Source: Prototheca cutis
Taxonomy: Eukaryota; Chlorophyta; Trebouxiophyceae; Chlorellales; Chlorellaceae
NCBI GenBank assembly: GCA_002897115.2
Contig: BCIH01000006.1
Span: forward strand, 257,250-321,249
Reading direction: 5' to 3'
Length of the DNA: 64,000 nucleotides
Below are positions 8,389 through 60,020 of this stretch, piece after piece; the first letter of the stretch is position 1, and every line of letters starts with the position of its first letter. The position numbers and the translations under genes were made by a program. A model generated the notes under the pieces. The model was not told the origin of the DNA, did no database searches, and was given only the letters and a program-made list of their open reading frames with translations.

Positions 8389-8717
8389 ACACCCCCCACC
8401 CACCAACGTGTCCAGCTCCTTATTTCTGCTGGTCCCAAAGGAGGCTTTCGCTTCCTCCCTCCATGCTTGAACAGGCATCAATAATCCCTACCTGCACGCA
8501 CGTTTGTTGCAGAGAAAGGGGTTGCTCCAGGGCGCCGTCAATGCTGTGTTTATTGCTTGCATGTCATGTGTTTGGCCTGCATGATCGATGGCCAAACAAA
8601 TTGGCGCGTGCCGTGCAATGTGTGAGCCCGACGTTGGTTAGTGAATCCGCCAGATCGGGTCTTGGACCGCTAAAAAATCCCTTTGGCGAAACGTTTGCGC
8701 GGTGCGCTGGTGTTGTC
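8389..8717. other. Intergenic region upstream of the permuted tRNA-Thr
   Basis: No coding signal was recognised. It presumably contains the 5' flank of the tRNA transcript. Confidence 0.4.
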
Positions 8718-8799
8718 AACCGAAGATCGTGCGTTCGATTCGCACAAGGGGCAGTAACATGCGCCTCTTTGGCCAAGTGGCTAAGGCGTCGGTCTTGTA
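8718..8799 (+). tRNA. trnT-UGU: Circularly permuted tRNA-Thr(UGU): 3' half precedes 5' half
   Basis: The 3' half lies first (8718-8753) and the 5' half second (8763-8799), with a 9-base spacer. Rejoined as 5' half plus 3' half they give a full cloverleaf. The acceptor stem GCCTCTT (8763-8769) pairs with AAGGGGC (8746-8752), with one G-U, and the discriminator is A8753. The T arm is GTGCG (8729-8733), loop TTCGATT, CGCAC (8741-8745). The anticodon stem TCGGT (8789-8793) pairs with ACCGA (8719-8723). The anticodon loop has U33 at 8795, anticodon TGT at 8796-8798 and A37/A38 split across the halves. The variable loop is AGATC. The D stem has GCC/GGC. Seven Ts follow at 8809-8815. This arrangement is known from Cyanidioschyzon, prasinophytes and nucleomorphs, where the precursor is processed through a circular RNA. 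Confidence 0.93.
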
Positions 8800-8808
8800 T
8801 CCGCTATC

Positions 8809-8815
8809 TTTTTTT
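8809..8815 (+). terminator. Pol III T-tract after permuted tRNA-Thr
   Basis: Seven Ts begin 10 bases after the end of the 5' half, where an RNA polymerase III transcript of the permuted precursor would end. Confidence 0.75.
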
Positions 8816-19843: not shown

Positions 19844-19895
<52 letters not shown>

Positions 19896-20087
19896 CCCCC
19901 CCCCCCAGGCGACCTGTACAACTTTGCGGATGTCAGCCTACAGAACGGGAACATCACCTTCCTGCCCAAGATGTGCGGCATGATCCCCGTGGGCATTATG
20001 TTTGCCAATGGCTACGATATTGGCGGCTCTCCTGGCCTGGGCCTGCCCTGCCCCGACGAAGTGACCAATGGCTGGCCCGAGGCGTGA
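17899..20087 (+). CDS. Secreted leucine-rich-repeat protein, copy B
   Basis: Nine exons: 17899-17980, 18158-18234, 18370-18432, 18579-18621, 18822-18943, 19171-19270, 19403-19531, 19694-19783 and 19909-20087, 294 residues. Exons 2, 4, 5, 6 and 7 have exactly the lengths of copy A (77, 43, 122, 100, 129). Signal peptide (MKTSALLLLVGSAALLHVAVG), Cys-containing LRR cap (SDCDPCGRDWWG), plant-type LRRs (GPIPESVGTIERLVRFKMQG) and the conserved tail are present. An ambiguous base at 19695 falls in the first codon of exon 8. Introns hold (CA)26, (GT)n and a 61-base C tract. Two TGTAA elements lie at 20126 and 20142. Confidence 0.88.
18737..18788 (+). repeat. (CA)26 microsatellite in intron 4 of LRR-B
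   Basis: An uninterrupted CA dinucleotide repeat upstream of the exon 5 acceptor. A shorter GT repeat lies at 19288-19310 in intron 6. Confidence 0.9.
19846..19906 (+). repeat. 61-base C tract at the exon 9 acceptor of LRR-B
   Basis: C run interrupted only by G19895 and leading directly into the acceptor AG at 19907-19908, so it replaces the polypyrimidine tract. Its length is probably unstable or uncertain. Confidence 0.8.
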
Positions 20088-34741: not shown

Positions 34742-37700
34742 ATGCAGGGCCAGGTCGCCGGCACTGGCGCCAAGCCCGTGCCGGCCCTGCGACCCACGGG
34801 CAACCGCCTGCCGTTTCGCGCCGTCGTGATACCCCTGCGGAGACGCGAGGCTCTTTTCACAGGAACGCTGTGCCGAGCCGCCGTGGAAGCACCCCCGGCG
34901 GCGACTGATCACAGCCTGAGTAAGGTTGCCGACGGCTCCGACAAGCTCATAGCGCCGCCCAGGCGCCAGACCGCGCAGACTGTTCGCCAGACCGCGCCTA
35001 CCTTTGTGAGACCCAATGCCGGAAACAAGGAAAAGGCAGGGAATACGAAAGCTGCGCCGCCGCCTTGGCTGCAGCAACGACAAACGCTCCCCCGCAGCTT
35101 CAAGCCTGATGACGCCAGGAACGGCGCTGCGGCCAGGCAGGCAGGTGCACCGAGCTCCGGCTTTCCTGGTCTGCCTCGCCAGGCTGCAGCCAGGAGCCTG
35201 GACATCGCAGGGCATGGCGCCAGCACGATCAGACCGGGCCGACGGCCGCCACAGGGCCCGGCAGGCGCAGCGCAGTCCAACGGCGTCGCGCGGCCGGGAA
35301 CCAGGAACGGGCTGGCAACCAAGAACAGGACGCGGAATCCATTGCTGATGGGCCTTCCTTCCAAGGACAAGAATGGCCGGCCACTGCCCGGGAAGCCAGG
35401 TGTGAGGTGCTGAGCAAGTGTCGCTTATGTGTTCTTTTGTTTGTGGAGATTTGCCCGTGAAGTAGGTTGCGGCGATGTTCATCCTCACCCAATGGGGGAC
35501 CATGCTGCACATTCTGAATGGGGTTGATAGGGAGTTTGTAAGGGCCGGGCTTGTTCGGTCTTCTTGTCGTCCCCACCCACAGACCCGGTCTGGGTTGTGC
35601 TTGCTTCCCGCAGGCGCACCACCACCGCGCGGCTTGGCAGCCCGTGGGCCCCCTCCGCCGCCGTTTCGGAAGAAGGGTCTTCCGGCGGTCAACCTCGACG
35701 CGCGTCGGCGGGCTCGGCTACACCGCCGGTCGGACCGGAGGGAGGAAGAGAAGAGCAGGGCCGGGCTGGCCGAGGTGAGCGAGCGTCGGGGTGCACTGGA
35801 GTGAGGCTGTGAGGGTAGGGATGCCTGCCTGCTTGCCGCGGACTGTGGCTGTGATCCTGTGCATTTGTGCCTCCGGATGTTGAACTGCATGAGCTCTCTG
35901 GACCTTTTGACAACGGTCTTTTTTTTGAATTCCACCAAATCCCAGGACATTTTCGAGGTGGAGCCCGAGGGCATGACAGTGGTGCGGCTGGCGGAGATGC
36001 TGGCTGTGTCTGCAGCAGAAGTCGTCCTGCAACTGTACCAGAAGGGTGTCAAGGCCGTCATCACCTCGGTCTTGGACACGGATGCCGTCCGGCTTGTCGC
36101 AGAGGTCAGGCTTTCTCTTTTTCTGGGGTGTGTGTGTGTGTGTGTGTTTACAGTTTGGTGTGTGAAGATGGGGCAGTGGAGTTTCATGTGTCTTCCATCT
36201 TTCATGTTTCATGAGGCATGGGGTGGCTCAGAGGAGCAATGCCATGCTGAGCATGATGCTCATGACACTGCCATGCCCGTTGTTAGCCAGACCATGGACC
36301 CTGGTCATGGAGCGTTTTCTGGATGGATTTCGGGTTTTCTTGACGTGTGTTTAATGGCAAAAGAAGTAGTTATTAAATATGCACATTACCATGATATCTC
36401 CTGCTCTTGCCATGTCAACAACACAGGAGTATGGTGTCGATGTGCTGGACAAGGCGGCCGCAGACGTGACTGAGGCGGCGCGCAAGTCCACAACCCCAGG
36501 TAGCAATGGTGATTCCGGGGCTGCTGGTACGAGCGCCTACCCCCTGCTACCACGGCCACCCGTGGTGACGGTGATGGGCCACGTCGATCATGGCAAGACA
36601 ACGCTGTTAGATGCATTGCGGCGGAGCAGCGTCGCTGCGGGCGAAGCGGGCGGCATCACGCAGGCCATCGGCGCCTACACCTGCTCGCTCGACAACCTCG
36701 CATGTGGGTCTGCTGGTGGCGGGGGTGATGAAGTCGATGGTATCAACGGCGCTGTGGATATGAGCGGAGCAGATGCTGATGACGACAGCGACAATGACCT
36801 TGACGACACGTCTGCGGCCCTCGTGCGGGCAGTGACCTTCCTCGACACTCCCGGGCACGAGGCGTTTGGCGCGATGCGGGCGCGGGGTGCACGTGCCACG
36901 GACATTGTGGTGCTTGTGGTTGCGGCTGACGAGGGGGTCCGGCCTCAGACCGTGGAGGCGCTGGCGCATGCTCGGGCTGCGGGCGTTCCCGTCGTCGCGG
37001 CGCTGAGCAAGTGCGATCGCGCGGAGGCCGATCCGGAGCGCGTGAGGGGGGAACTGGCCGCGCATGACTGCGTGCCCGAGGCCTGGGGGGGGACCGTACC
37101 GGTGGTCGAGACGTCGGCCCGGACCGGCGCCGGGCTAACTGAGTTGGTAGAGTCGCTGCTCTTGGTCGCGGAGCTGGAGGAGCCCCGCGCCCGCACGGCG
37201 GGGCCCGCCCGCGGCATCGTGCTCGACGGCGCCGTCGACCCTCGCCGAGGAACGGTGGCCTCGCTGCTGGTGCAGGAGGGCACATTGCGGGTTGGCGACG
37301 CCGTTTCTGCCGGTGCGGCACATGGTCGTGTCCGTGCCATGAGCGGCGCAGACGGCCAGTCGCTTGACACCGCGGGGCCCTCTACTGCGGTGCAGATCAC
37401 AGGCCTGGGGTCTGTGCCCGTCGCGGGTGACGGCTTTGCCGTGCACGCCGATGAGCCTGCTGCGCGTGCTGCGGCAGAGACGGCTGCACAGAAGCTCCGC
37501 GAACGGCGACTCGACGAGCTTGCCGCCTCCGGCGGCACTGTCCATGCTGCTGTTGACTCGGGGGAGCACAGTCATAGTCCTGGTGGCAGCAGAGGAGCAG
37601 GAGCATCTACCGACGAGTCGCCGTCAACAGCAATGCACCCGAGCCTCGCTCGCTTGGTGGCCGAACGCGGCCTGCACGCATCCTCCAGCCCCGGCGCCGG

Positions 37701-38394
37701 AACACAAACGCTCGCTGGCCTCTTGGCGCGGCCGGCCTCGCAGCATGCCTTGCCCCACCCTCACCCGACAACAATGCTCAATCTCGTCGTGAAAACCGAC
37801 TCGAGCGGCGCGGCCGAGGCGGCGCGGTCGGCGCTGCAAAATCTGGCGCAAGGCTGCACTGGAAATGGGGGAACGAGCACAGGCCTTCGCCTGCTCCTGG
37901 TGGCTCCAGGGCGTGTGACAGCGAGCGACATCGACTTGGCGCACGCCGCAGGAGGTGCGGTGCTGGGGTTCCAGACCCGAGTCGACTCTGGAGCGGCGGC
38001 CGCCGCTGTGCGGTACCGCGTCCCCGTCAGTACCCACGCCGTCATCTACGACATGCTCGATGCGGTACGCAATGCTTTAGAAAGCACGGCGGCCAGGGGA
38101 CCCGAGGTCGTGACCGCCGGCGAGGCGATCGTCAAAGCCGTGTTTGGCAGCGGGCGGCGGCGCGCCGCAGGGTGCGTGGTGACCGAGGGTGTGCTGCACC
38201 GTGGCGGCGCGGTACGAGTCTGGCGAGGCGAAAAGCTCCTGTTCCAGGGGGACCTGGAGTCGCTGCGAAGGGAGAAGGAAGACGTGTCCTCCGTGCCCGC
38301 GGGGACCGAGTGCGGCGTCGCGCTGCCAGACTTCGCAGACTGGCAGGAAGGGGACCGCCTGGAGGAGCTCAGGCTCGCGAGTGATGACGCCTGA
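34742..38394 (+). CDS. infB: Organellar (probably plastid) translation initiation factor IF-2
   Basis: Four exons, 34742-35399, 35614-35774, 35946-36104 and 36427-38394, 981 residues, phases consistent. IF-2 is the GTPase that places initiator tRNA on the bacterial-type ribosome. The first 60 residues are rich in Arg/Ala/Ser and look like a transit peptide; a long low-complexity N-terminal region follows. The IF2-N motif ([20 protein letters not shown]) and the G domain are clear: G1 GHVDHGKTT (about residue 376), G2 [12 protein letters not shown]3 [15 protein letters not shown] (about 465). G4 reads SKCD (about 519) instead of NKxD, and G5 is ETSARTG. A 40-residue Gly/Asp-rich insert separates G2 from G3. 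Domains II-IV follow, ending with the conserved C-terminal barrel. Plastid rather than mitochondrial location is inference. Confidence 0.93.
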
Positions 38395-42262: not shown

Positions 42263-42821
42263 GAAACTTCGCTCTTGCGCAGAAATTATATAAACTTGCT
42301 ATGTTTCGTATACTCATGTCACTATGAAGTGGGCGCATGTGCTGAACATTTGTGCACAACGGCATCGGTGAGGAGGACCCCATTTTTGTTGCTCGGAACA
42401 TTTCCCCAGTGCATGCAGCCACAGGGCTGGTACTTGGTCGGCGCGCAGGCACACGGCCTACCAGGACGTCGTTTCTCTGGCCCCCGCCGTTGTTGATGGG
42501 CTATTCTGCATGTACACCGTAGTTGTCGTATCGTTGGGCTGTGATGAACAACACCTCTGGAGGGTTTGGGCCCGTTGTGCCTGAAACAGGGTTCGCCCTG
42601 ACCACACACGGGACCACTCGCTCTTCCACGCTGGACGGGCTTGCCAATGCGCTGTCCACACTACCGGGGGGGGTGGCAGGTTCATAACACGTTCCGAGGC
42701 AGCACCGCGACGTTGTACAATACGACGTTCACGGGCATTCGTGCTTGATAAACCCACAAAAAATCCATTTTGGGAGGAAAGTGTGGCAGGCTGTGAGGCG
42801 AACGCCCTCGCGCGCGACGCA
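42263..42821. other. Intergenic region, RRP41 to permuted tRNA-Ile
   Basis: Contains the TATATAA element of RRP41 at 42286-42292. No further gene was recognised. Confidence 0.4.
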
Positions 42822-42930
42822 AGCCGGAAGTCCTGGGTTCGAGCCCCAGTAGGGACAGCCAGGGACACCGTGCTCCCTCACCTCCGTGTCCCGTCCCTAT
42901 AGATCAGTCGGTTAGATCATCGGTCTTATG
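42822..42930 (+). tRNA. trnI-UAU: Circularly permuted tRNA-Ile(UAU): 3' half precedes 5' half
   Basis: The 3' half (42822-42857) lies before the 5' half (42893-42930), with a 35-base spacer. Rejoined, they form a full cloverleaf. The acceptor stem GTCCCTA (42893-42899) pairs perfectly with TAGGGAC (42850-42856); discriminator A42857. The D stem is GATC/GATC (42902-42905 with 42915-42918). The T arm is CTGGG (42833-42837), loop TTCGAGC, CCCAG (42845-42849). The anticodon stem TCGGT (42920-42924) pairs with GCCGG (42823-42827) using G-U at both ends. U33 is 42926, the anticodon TAT is 42927-42929, G37 is 42930 and A38 is 42822. The flanks TGCG (42931-42934) and CGCA (42818-42821) are complementary, extending a helix across the splice junction as expected for endonuclease processing. 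Five Ts follow at 42944. Confidence 0.93.
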
Positions 42931-42943
42931 TGCGATCCTGTCC

Positions 42944-42948
42944 TTTTT
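42944..42948 (+). terminator. Pol III T-tract after permuted tRNA-Ile
   Basis: Five Ts 14 bases after the end of the 5' half, consistent with RNA polymerase III termination of the permuted precursor. Confidence 0.65.

Positions 42949-59950: not shown

Positions 59951-60020
<70 letters not shown>

Follow-up and report, generated by a model that had tools for sequence, protein, structure and literature searches.

We report that the genome of Prototheca cutis contains a complete tRNA-Ile(UAU) whose parts lie in swapped order, with the 3' half first, a spacer next and the 5' half last, at positions 42822-42930 on the forward strand of the stretch of DNA that we analysed (hereafter the window; 64,000 nucleotides, C6:257250-321249 in a eukaryotic assembly of 23 contigs and 19.9 Mb). 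The observation of this permuted structure is confirmed by the analyses below. Judging from its sequence, we are highly confident that it represents a functional, circularly permuted nuclear gene for tRNA-Ile(UAU), apparently present in one copy and type II-like in that its junction falls in the anticodon loop, in a non-photosynthetic trebouxiophyte of the Auxenochlorella-Helicosporidium-Prototheca lineage.

All 21 stem pairs of the cloverleaf are formed, and the acceptor and anticodon stems, which join the two halves, account for 12 of 12. A previous sequence-only reading of this DNA had described a 35-base spacer, a perfect acceptor stem (GTCCCTA/TAGGGAC), perfect D and T stems, an anticodon stem that ends in G-U pairs and the anticodon UAU, and all of these features were borne out; 7/7 pairs form in the acceptor stem, 4/4 in the D stem (GATC/GATC), 5/5 in the T stem (CTGGG/CCCAG) and 5/5 in the anticodon stem (UCGGU/GCCGG), which has a G-U pair at each end. 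The bases T8, A14, G15:C48, G18G19, A21, U33, G53-TTCGA58, C61 and A73, conserved in tRNAs according to a list drawn partly from general knowledge and partly from the sections consulted of a 2014 review (PMC3978253), are all present. The spacer folds alone with an energy of -11.3 kcal/mol. The 50 bp that precede the 3' half lack a TATA, and an A+T-rich stretch lies about 50-75 bp upstream instead. Coordinates of these features, and of a second permuted gene in the window, are collected in Table 1.

Table 1. Coordinates, in window positions, of the permuted tRNA-Ile(UAU) and tRNA-Thr(UGU) genes and of the elements near them.
Feature	Position	Strand	Basis or remark
A+T-rich stretch, contains ACAAAAAATCCATTTTGG	42748-42773	+	candidate external Pol III promoter element (putative function)
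5' leader of Ile(UAU) precursor, proposed to be removed at junction	42806-42821	+	sequence, pairing tests; putative start
3' half of tRNA-Ile(UAU), tRNA positions 38-73	42822-42857	+	sequence, parse, model R2
3' half: A38		+	
3' half: anticodon-stem 3' strand	42823-42827	+	
3' half: variable loop	42828-42832	+	
3' half: T arm	42833-42849	+	
3' half: acceptor 3' strand	42850-42856	+	
3' half: A73	42857	+	
Intervening sequence (spacer), 35 bases	42858-42892	+	own hairpin, 7-bp stem GGGACAC/GTGTCCC
5' half of tRNA-Ile(UAU), tRNA positions 1-37	42893-42930	+	sequence, parse, model R2
5' half: acceptor 5' strand	42893-42899	+	
5' half: D arm	42902-42918	+	
5' half: anticodon-stem 5' strand	42920-42924	+	
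5' half: anticodon UAU	42927-42929	+	
5' half: G	42930	+	position 37 if the junction is 37/38
3' trailer of Ile(UAU) precursor, proposed to be removed at junction	42931-42943	+	sequence, pairing test
TTTTT, Pol III terminator-like run	42944-42948	+	begins 14 bases past the 5' half
Permuted tRNA-Thr(UGU): 3' half	8718-8753	+	model R2, strict scan
Permuted tRNA-Thr(UGU): spacer, 9 bases	8754-8762	+	model R2, strict scan
Permuted tRNA-Thr(UGU): 5' half	8763-8799	+	model R2, strict scan
T7 run after tRNA-Thr(UGU)	8809-8815	+	

A strict scan of both strands of the window, which demands the conserved tRNA bases and at least 19 of the 21 pairs, returned two structures, the tRNA-Ile(UAU) with 21/21 pairs and the tRNA-Thr(UGU) with 20/21; the same scan of both strands of dinucleotide-shuffled windows found such a structure in 0 of 2798. 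With a looser scan, none of 265 shuffles reached 21/21 pairs; in 35 of 530 strand scans the top score was 20. We also built a covariance model (R2) from six standard tRNAs of the same genome, re-ordered, from which both window genes were excluded to avoid circularity. It scored 51.6 bits (E 6.7e-13) on tRNA-Ile(UAU) and 53.1 bits on tRNA-Thr(UGU), the next match in the window being 19.4 bits; a model that has both window genes in its training set (R1) gave 64.4 and 69.1 bits, respectively. E-values of models of this type are rough. A weak permuted-like match at window positions 37093-37164, inside an exon of plastid IF-2 (R1 16.3 bits, R2 19.4 bits), was taken as chance. Folding energy does not set the locus apart: the unconstrained RNA fold is not a cloverleaf (-44.5 kcal/mol, compared with -42.9 kcal/mol when the cloverleaf is forced), and it is nothing special relative to shuffled sequences (z -0.26, with 77 of 200 shuffles equally good).

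Standard tools do not call either gene. ARAGORN found no tRNA genes in the window and Rfam gave no matches at gathering thresholds; at relaxed E-values, an Rfam tRNA match at 8677-8753 that overlaps the tRNA-Thr(UGU) gene scores 24.1 bits, under the cut-off of 29, and the best match over tRNA-Ile(UAU), at 42810-42938, is to YrlA (RF02553; 26.6 bits, E 0.18). YrlA is a bacterial Ro-associated RNA. This weak likeness raises the idea that the locus encodes a YrlA-type Y RNA or another non-coding RNA that mimics a permuted tRNA and is no source of tRNA. We regard this as extremely improbable: the score is far under the 69 bits of the YrlA gathering threshold, the locus has a complete anticodon arm with its anticodon, and it is a member of a genome-wide set (below) whose anticodons were not found in any standard gene. 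YrlA is not known to have a decoding function. As a side point, Rfam models of the YrlA type could perhaps be used for a crude detection of permuted tRNA genes.

The extent of permutation in this genome was surveyed by B-box patterns, followed by R1, ARAGORN, Rfam and a cloverleaf parse that gives the best-scoring fold per locus. The pattern GGTTCGANYCC occurs at 97 places, all of which were examined; 23 belong to permuted and 14 to standard tRNA genes, and no tRNA was recognised at the other 60, some of which are palindromic B boxes read on the opposite strand. GGTTCAANYCC occurs at 88 places, and the 27 examined (25 in loci L009, L014, L019, L029, L033 and L150-L169, one in the window and one in L088) yielded two permuted genes, Cys(GCA) and Ala(AGC). 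With the Thr(UGU) gene of the window and a Gln(CUG) gene located in the flank of a standard tRNA, the genome has at least 27 permuted genes for 20 anticodons and at least 18 standard genes for 11 anticodons, and not one anticodon is common to both sets. In DNA letters, the permuted anticodons are Ile TAT and AAT (two genes), Thr TGT, Pro TGG, Cys GCA, Gly CCC, TCC and GCC (four genes), Glu CTC (four genes), Arg TCT, TCG and CCG, Val TAC, Gln TTG and CTG, Ser CGA and TGA, Leu AAG and TAA, and Ala AGC. The standard genes comprise 17 for 10 anticodons and a Leu(UAG) in L127, which was named by reading (Rfam tRNA 41 bits; ARAGORN called it Phe). A further standard gene may lie at the edge of L125, which truncates a Phe 3' half. 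With 63 of 246 candidates scored in the tRNA family search and 27 of 88 places read for the second B-box pattern, both gene counts are lower bounds, and the permuted fraction of tRNA genes may therefore change with fuller coverage. Neither the B-box lists nor the tRNA family search yielded genes of either form for His, Asn, Tyr, Trp or elongator Met, nor for others such as further isoacceptors of Val, Ser, Thr and Ala.

R1 gives up to 26.8 bits on loci with standard tRNAs (L011, L034, L077, L093), and we therefore counted R1 matches at 30 bits or more. Gln(CUG) and Ser(UGA), with R2 scores of 19.2 and 16.6 bits, and, where R2 is concerned, both Leu genes (25.2 and 23.2 bits) were accepted on the parse rather than on model score. 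Parse scores run from 22.7 to 26.0 for the 27 permuted genes, and the best other locus reaches 20.4. We discounted the long introns that ARAGORN called at some loci (for example L092 and L138), taking them for false joins. Neither ARAGORN nor the Rfam tRNA model labelled any permuted gene as such, which has a practical consequence for annotation. One further locus, L134 (C12:216156-216466), counted among the 60 B-box places with no recognised tRNA, is tRNA-like: its T arm and acceptor stem are good, its anticodon arm is odd, and ARAGORN calls it 'tRNA-???'.

The presence of 27 such genes makes the permuted reading of the tRNA-Ile(UAU) locus much stronger, and the claim of the sequence-only reading that this is a permuted gene stands as the one that fits best. 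The order of the halves could in principle be accidental, since two adjacent tRNA fragments, or tandem standard genes that had lost their outer halves, would leave the halves in the same order. It is hardly credible here that they did, given that the halves match each other at 12/12 pairs in the acceptor and anticodon stems, that none of the 2798 shuffled windows holds such a structure, that 27 genes with 20 anticodons share the arrangement, and that ARAGORN and Rfam find no full standard genes overlapping the halves.

Several properties of the permuted genes as a class are signs of function. In 27/27 best-scoring parses the acceptor stem has 7/7 pairs and the junction lies in the anticodon loop, the only kind of junction searched for. 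A TTTT starts at most 17 bases past the 5' half in 24/24 permuted genes tested, compared with 102 of 1279 background 50-nt tiles that hold one, and lies inside the gene or spacer in 1/24. When one gene was taken for each of 17 anticodons, the mean pairing energy of leader with own trailer was -3.91 kcal/mol, compared with -2.28 kcal/mol for the partners of other genes; 3 of 10000 permutations matched the own pairing, and with longer flanks 16 and 29 of 10000 did. Upstream of these 24 permuted genes, A+T content peaks at 0.59 at -50 to -41 (window 0.38). TTTTGG or CTTTGG is found at -80 to -30 in 4/24, compared with 33/1279 background 50-nt tiles; the four genes with this A+T-rich element (such as AAAATCCATTTTGG) are Ile(UAU), Thr(UGU), Arg(UCU) in L103 and Arg(UCG) in L148. 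The sections of PMC3978253 consulted describe a TATA-like element within 50 bp upstream of permuted genes in Cyanidioschyzon merolae and an ambiguous A+T-rich region in green algae. Finally, a profile search found the catalytic domain of the splicing endonuclease (PF01974) at two loci, C3:762183-762398 and C7:717349-717564.

Comparisons within the class are informative as well. The permuted Pro(UGG) (L083, match at C2:935337) agrees with the standard Pro(CGG) (L047, C1:222717-223036) at 71/72 mature positions, and because of this agreement the gene format of the pair appears to have changed recently. The standard Pro(CGG) carries a 48-base intron, in which we saw by eye no obvious similarity to the leader and trailer of the permuted Pro(UGG). 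The relatives of Ile(UAU) are distant: the nearest among 16 other permuted anticodons is Ile(AAU), at 53/74, and among nine standard sequences it is Lys, at 51/75. Four copies of Gly(GCC), including those in L138, L140 and L144, have identical halves and differ in spacers and outer flanks, and at the junction the leader ends in CAGCTT in three and CAGTTT in one, with trailer GCTG in 4/4; from their sequences, these copies can be read as a natural map of cis-elements, in which the junction bases are kept. The four copies of Glu(CTC), which keep CGTGATCT just ahead of the 3' half and TACGCCTCG just past the 5' half, are less informative because their outer flanks are also alike. Spacers are 9 to 35 bases long in a table of 24 permuted genes, among which that of Ile(UAU) is the longest, and outside that table reach 41 bases in Gln(CUG) and 80 bases in Ser(UGA) (L088, C2:1776929-1779939), the latter longer than the longest spacer, 74, in the table of the 2014 review (PMC3978253).

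The exact place of the Ile(UAU) junction matters for one base of the tRNA. The 5' half ends in CTTATG and the 3' half is preceded by GCA; joining at 37/38 would give the loop CUUAUGA with G37, and joining at 36/37 the loop CUUAUAA with A37. The coordinates of the sequence-only reading imply 37/38 and so G37, a point that it did not raise. A37 is found in the other permuted readers of ANN codons, namely both Ile(AAU) genes, Thr(UGU) and Arg(UCU), and G37 in the permuted Pro, both Leu, two Arg(CGN) and Cys. G37 in Pro, Leu, Arg(CGN) and Cys tRNAs is as expected from other eukaryotes. A37 is the form expected for the modification t6A37, and G37 is the wrong base for a reader of AUA, such that the decoding rule favours 36/37. 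In C. merolae, tRNA-Ile(UAU) may carry t6A37, according to the portion of PMC9602550 consulted. The register of the bulge-helix-bulge favours 37/38, where the motif is only partly formed, with 2/4 central and 3/4 outer pairs; there, C32 forms a pair with the leader base third from the end, and further out GCG is paired with CGC. PMC3978253, in the text consulted, portrays the yeast endonuclease as a ruler set to the 37/38 place. A fixed-register test of the bulge-helix-bulge in 24 genes singled out no register (93 at 37/38, with a maximum of 102 among 25 registers). The sequence-only reading had proposed that CGCA before the 3' half and TGCG after the 5' half extend a helix across the processing site; the two segments (42818-42821 and 42931-42934) are complementary, and their helix represents one leader-trailer register among several that could form. 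The sequence suggests an Ile(UAU) junction in the anticodon loop, type II-like, with 37/38 favoured by the bulge-helix-bulge register and 36/37 by the decoding rule.

A standard, expressed tRNA-Ile(UAU) gene had been named by the sequence-only reading as evidence that would speak against it; on the genomic side, no second or standard copy was found with the patterns and query used. The joined mature tRNA, as a DNA query of limited sensitivity against the genome, matched only its own two halves. A 5'-half pattern with an A box occurs at 17 places with CTTAT and at 31 with TTTAT, the latter judged on matched letters only, and would be escaped by genes with an unusual A box; among these 48 places a 4/4 D stem is found in the Ile(UAU) gene itself, which has a normal loop, and at C6:618460, which has a loop of 12 bases. 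The latter (locus L067) was rejected as a second UAU gene, having this 12-base D loop and no tRNA recognised by R1 or ARAGORN.

The same earlier reading had suggested that this gene may be the only decoder of AUA codons, and that suggestion holds in part: it is possibly the only UAU gene, but the two permuted tRNA-Ile(AAU) genes could also read AUA. An inosine-34 form of tRNA-Ile(AAU) may have this capacity, and because two such genes exist, AUA need not depend on tRNA-Ile(UAU) alone. In four Pfam-supported stretches that total 1142 codons, none of the 30 codons for Ile is AUA, and selection on tRNA-Ile(UAU) may therefore be weak and a decaying gene possible. Together with G37 under the standard junction, the absence of AUA from these stretches and the two tRNA-Ile(AAU) genes would suit a permuted pseudogene, one that once made tRNA-Ile(UAU) and is now unexpressed or mis-spliced while AUA is read by tRNA-Ile(IAU). 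We think such decay distinctly unlikely, as the 21/21 pairs, the conserved bases and the terminator-like run are all intact and no other UAU gene was found with the searches made.

For the functional permuted gene, we infer all of the processing steps by analogy with the route described for other algae in the sections of PMC3978253 consulted (transcript, junction cuts, circle, spacer removal, CCA). Pol III would make one linear transcript consisting of leader, 3' half, spacer, 5' half and trailer, ending at the TTTTT of Table 1. In the folded transcript, a cloverleaf, the anticodon loop would be open and the spacer would close the acceptor end. Leader and trailer would then be cut off by the tRNA-splicing endonuclease at the anticodon-loop junction, and a ligase would join the resulting ends into an RNA circle, from which the spacer would be excised, possibly by RNase P and tRNase Z, before CCA is added. 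The 7-bp hairpin of the spacer, which adjoins the acceptor stem, may influence the last processing step.

Permuted tRNA genes are a known kind of gene. The table of the 2014 review (PMC3978253) has 34 of them from six algae and one archaeon, the largest set being the 11 of Cyanidioschyzon, and that table includes no Ile and no anticodon UGU. The sections of this review consulted describe genes of type II in the prasinophytes Ostreococcus and Micromonas that share with those of P. cutis the 3' half in first place, the anticodon-loop junction, a spacer of tens of bases or less and possibly the relaxed bulge-helix-bulge; these genomes have 3 to 6 permuted genes each, whereas the present one, from a non-photosynthetic trebouxiophyte relative, has at least 27. 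Cyanidioschyzon genes likewise have the 3' half first and a T-run after the 5' half, and a circular intermediate is known there; 11 of its 43 genes are permuted, with junctions at four positions, whereas here 27/27 fit the anticodon loop, the sole type searched (PMC3978253, same sections). In C. merolae, tRNA-Ile(UAU) has three introns, according to the portion of PMC9602550 consulted, and is absent from the table of permuted genes. What is unusual in P. cutis is the genome-wide extent, with at least 27 genes where no genome in the 2014 table has more than 11, and one unexplained base.

Closer to P. cutis, the tRNAscan-SE set of Auxenochlorella UTEX 250-A, of the same wider lineage, was incomplete and permuted genes were then detected (PMC12633428, in the part consulted). 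This preprint is the only trebouxiophyte report that we recognised in a survey of the open-access literature. Prototheca and Helicosporidium are described there as the closest relatives of Auxenochlorella, with photosynthesis lost in all and with streamlined genomes in the lineage. The window itself encodes an IF-2 (36370-38394) whose best match, among the matches listed, is from Auxenochlorella (49% identity over 98% of the query); it is plastid-type by the names of its relatives, and the other top listed matches with algal names are from Chlorellales and other green algae. Searches for chlorophyll a/b-binding protein (PF00504) and PsbO (PF01716) gave no match in the genome at the sensitivity used, and both were matched in a Synechococcus control. 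Together with the preprint, these results would place the window in this lineage, outside Auxenochlorella itself. The window also holds homopolymer runs of about 61 C (19846-19906) and about 69 G (59951-60019).

Permuted tRNA genes have so far been treated as rare oddities. We think it fairly probable that the permuted order is instead the normal state of nuclear tRNA genes in this lineage, accounting for over half of the set, with about two thirds of the anticodons found (20/31) supplied by permuted genes alone and translation thus reliant on RNA circles made by splicing endonuclease and ligase. On this reading, tRNA-Ile(UAU) would either have a shifted junction, 36/37, or be a reader of AUA with G37 and hence without t6A37. 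The genome also offers natural experiments, among which the Pro(UGG)/Pro(CGG) pair makes the change of format recent enough to study. If the permuted genes, at least 27, have no standard copies for their 20 anticodons, RNA circularisation would be essential to translation; because over half of the tRNA genes found are permuted, the cell probably must make circular RNAs to translate its genes.
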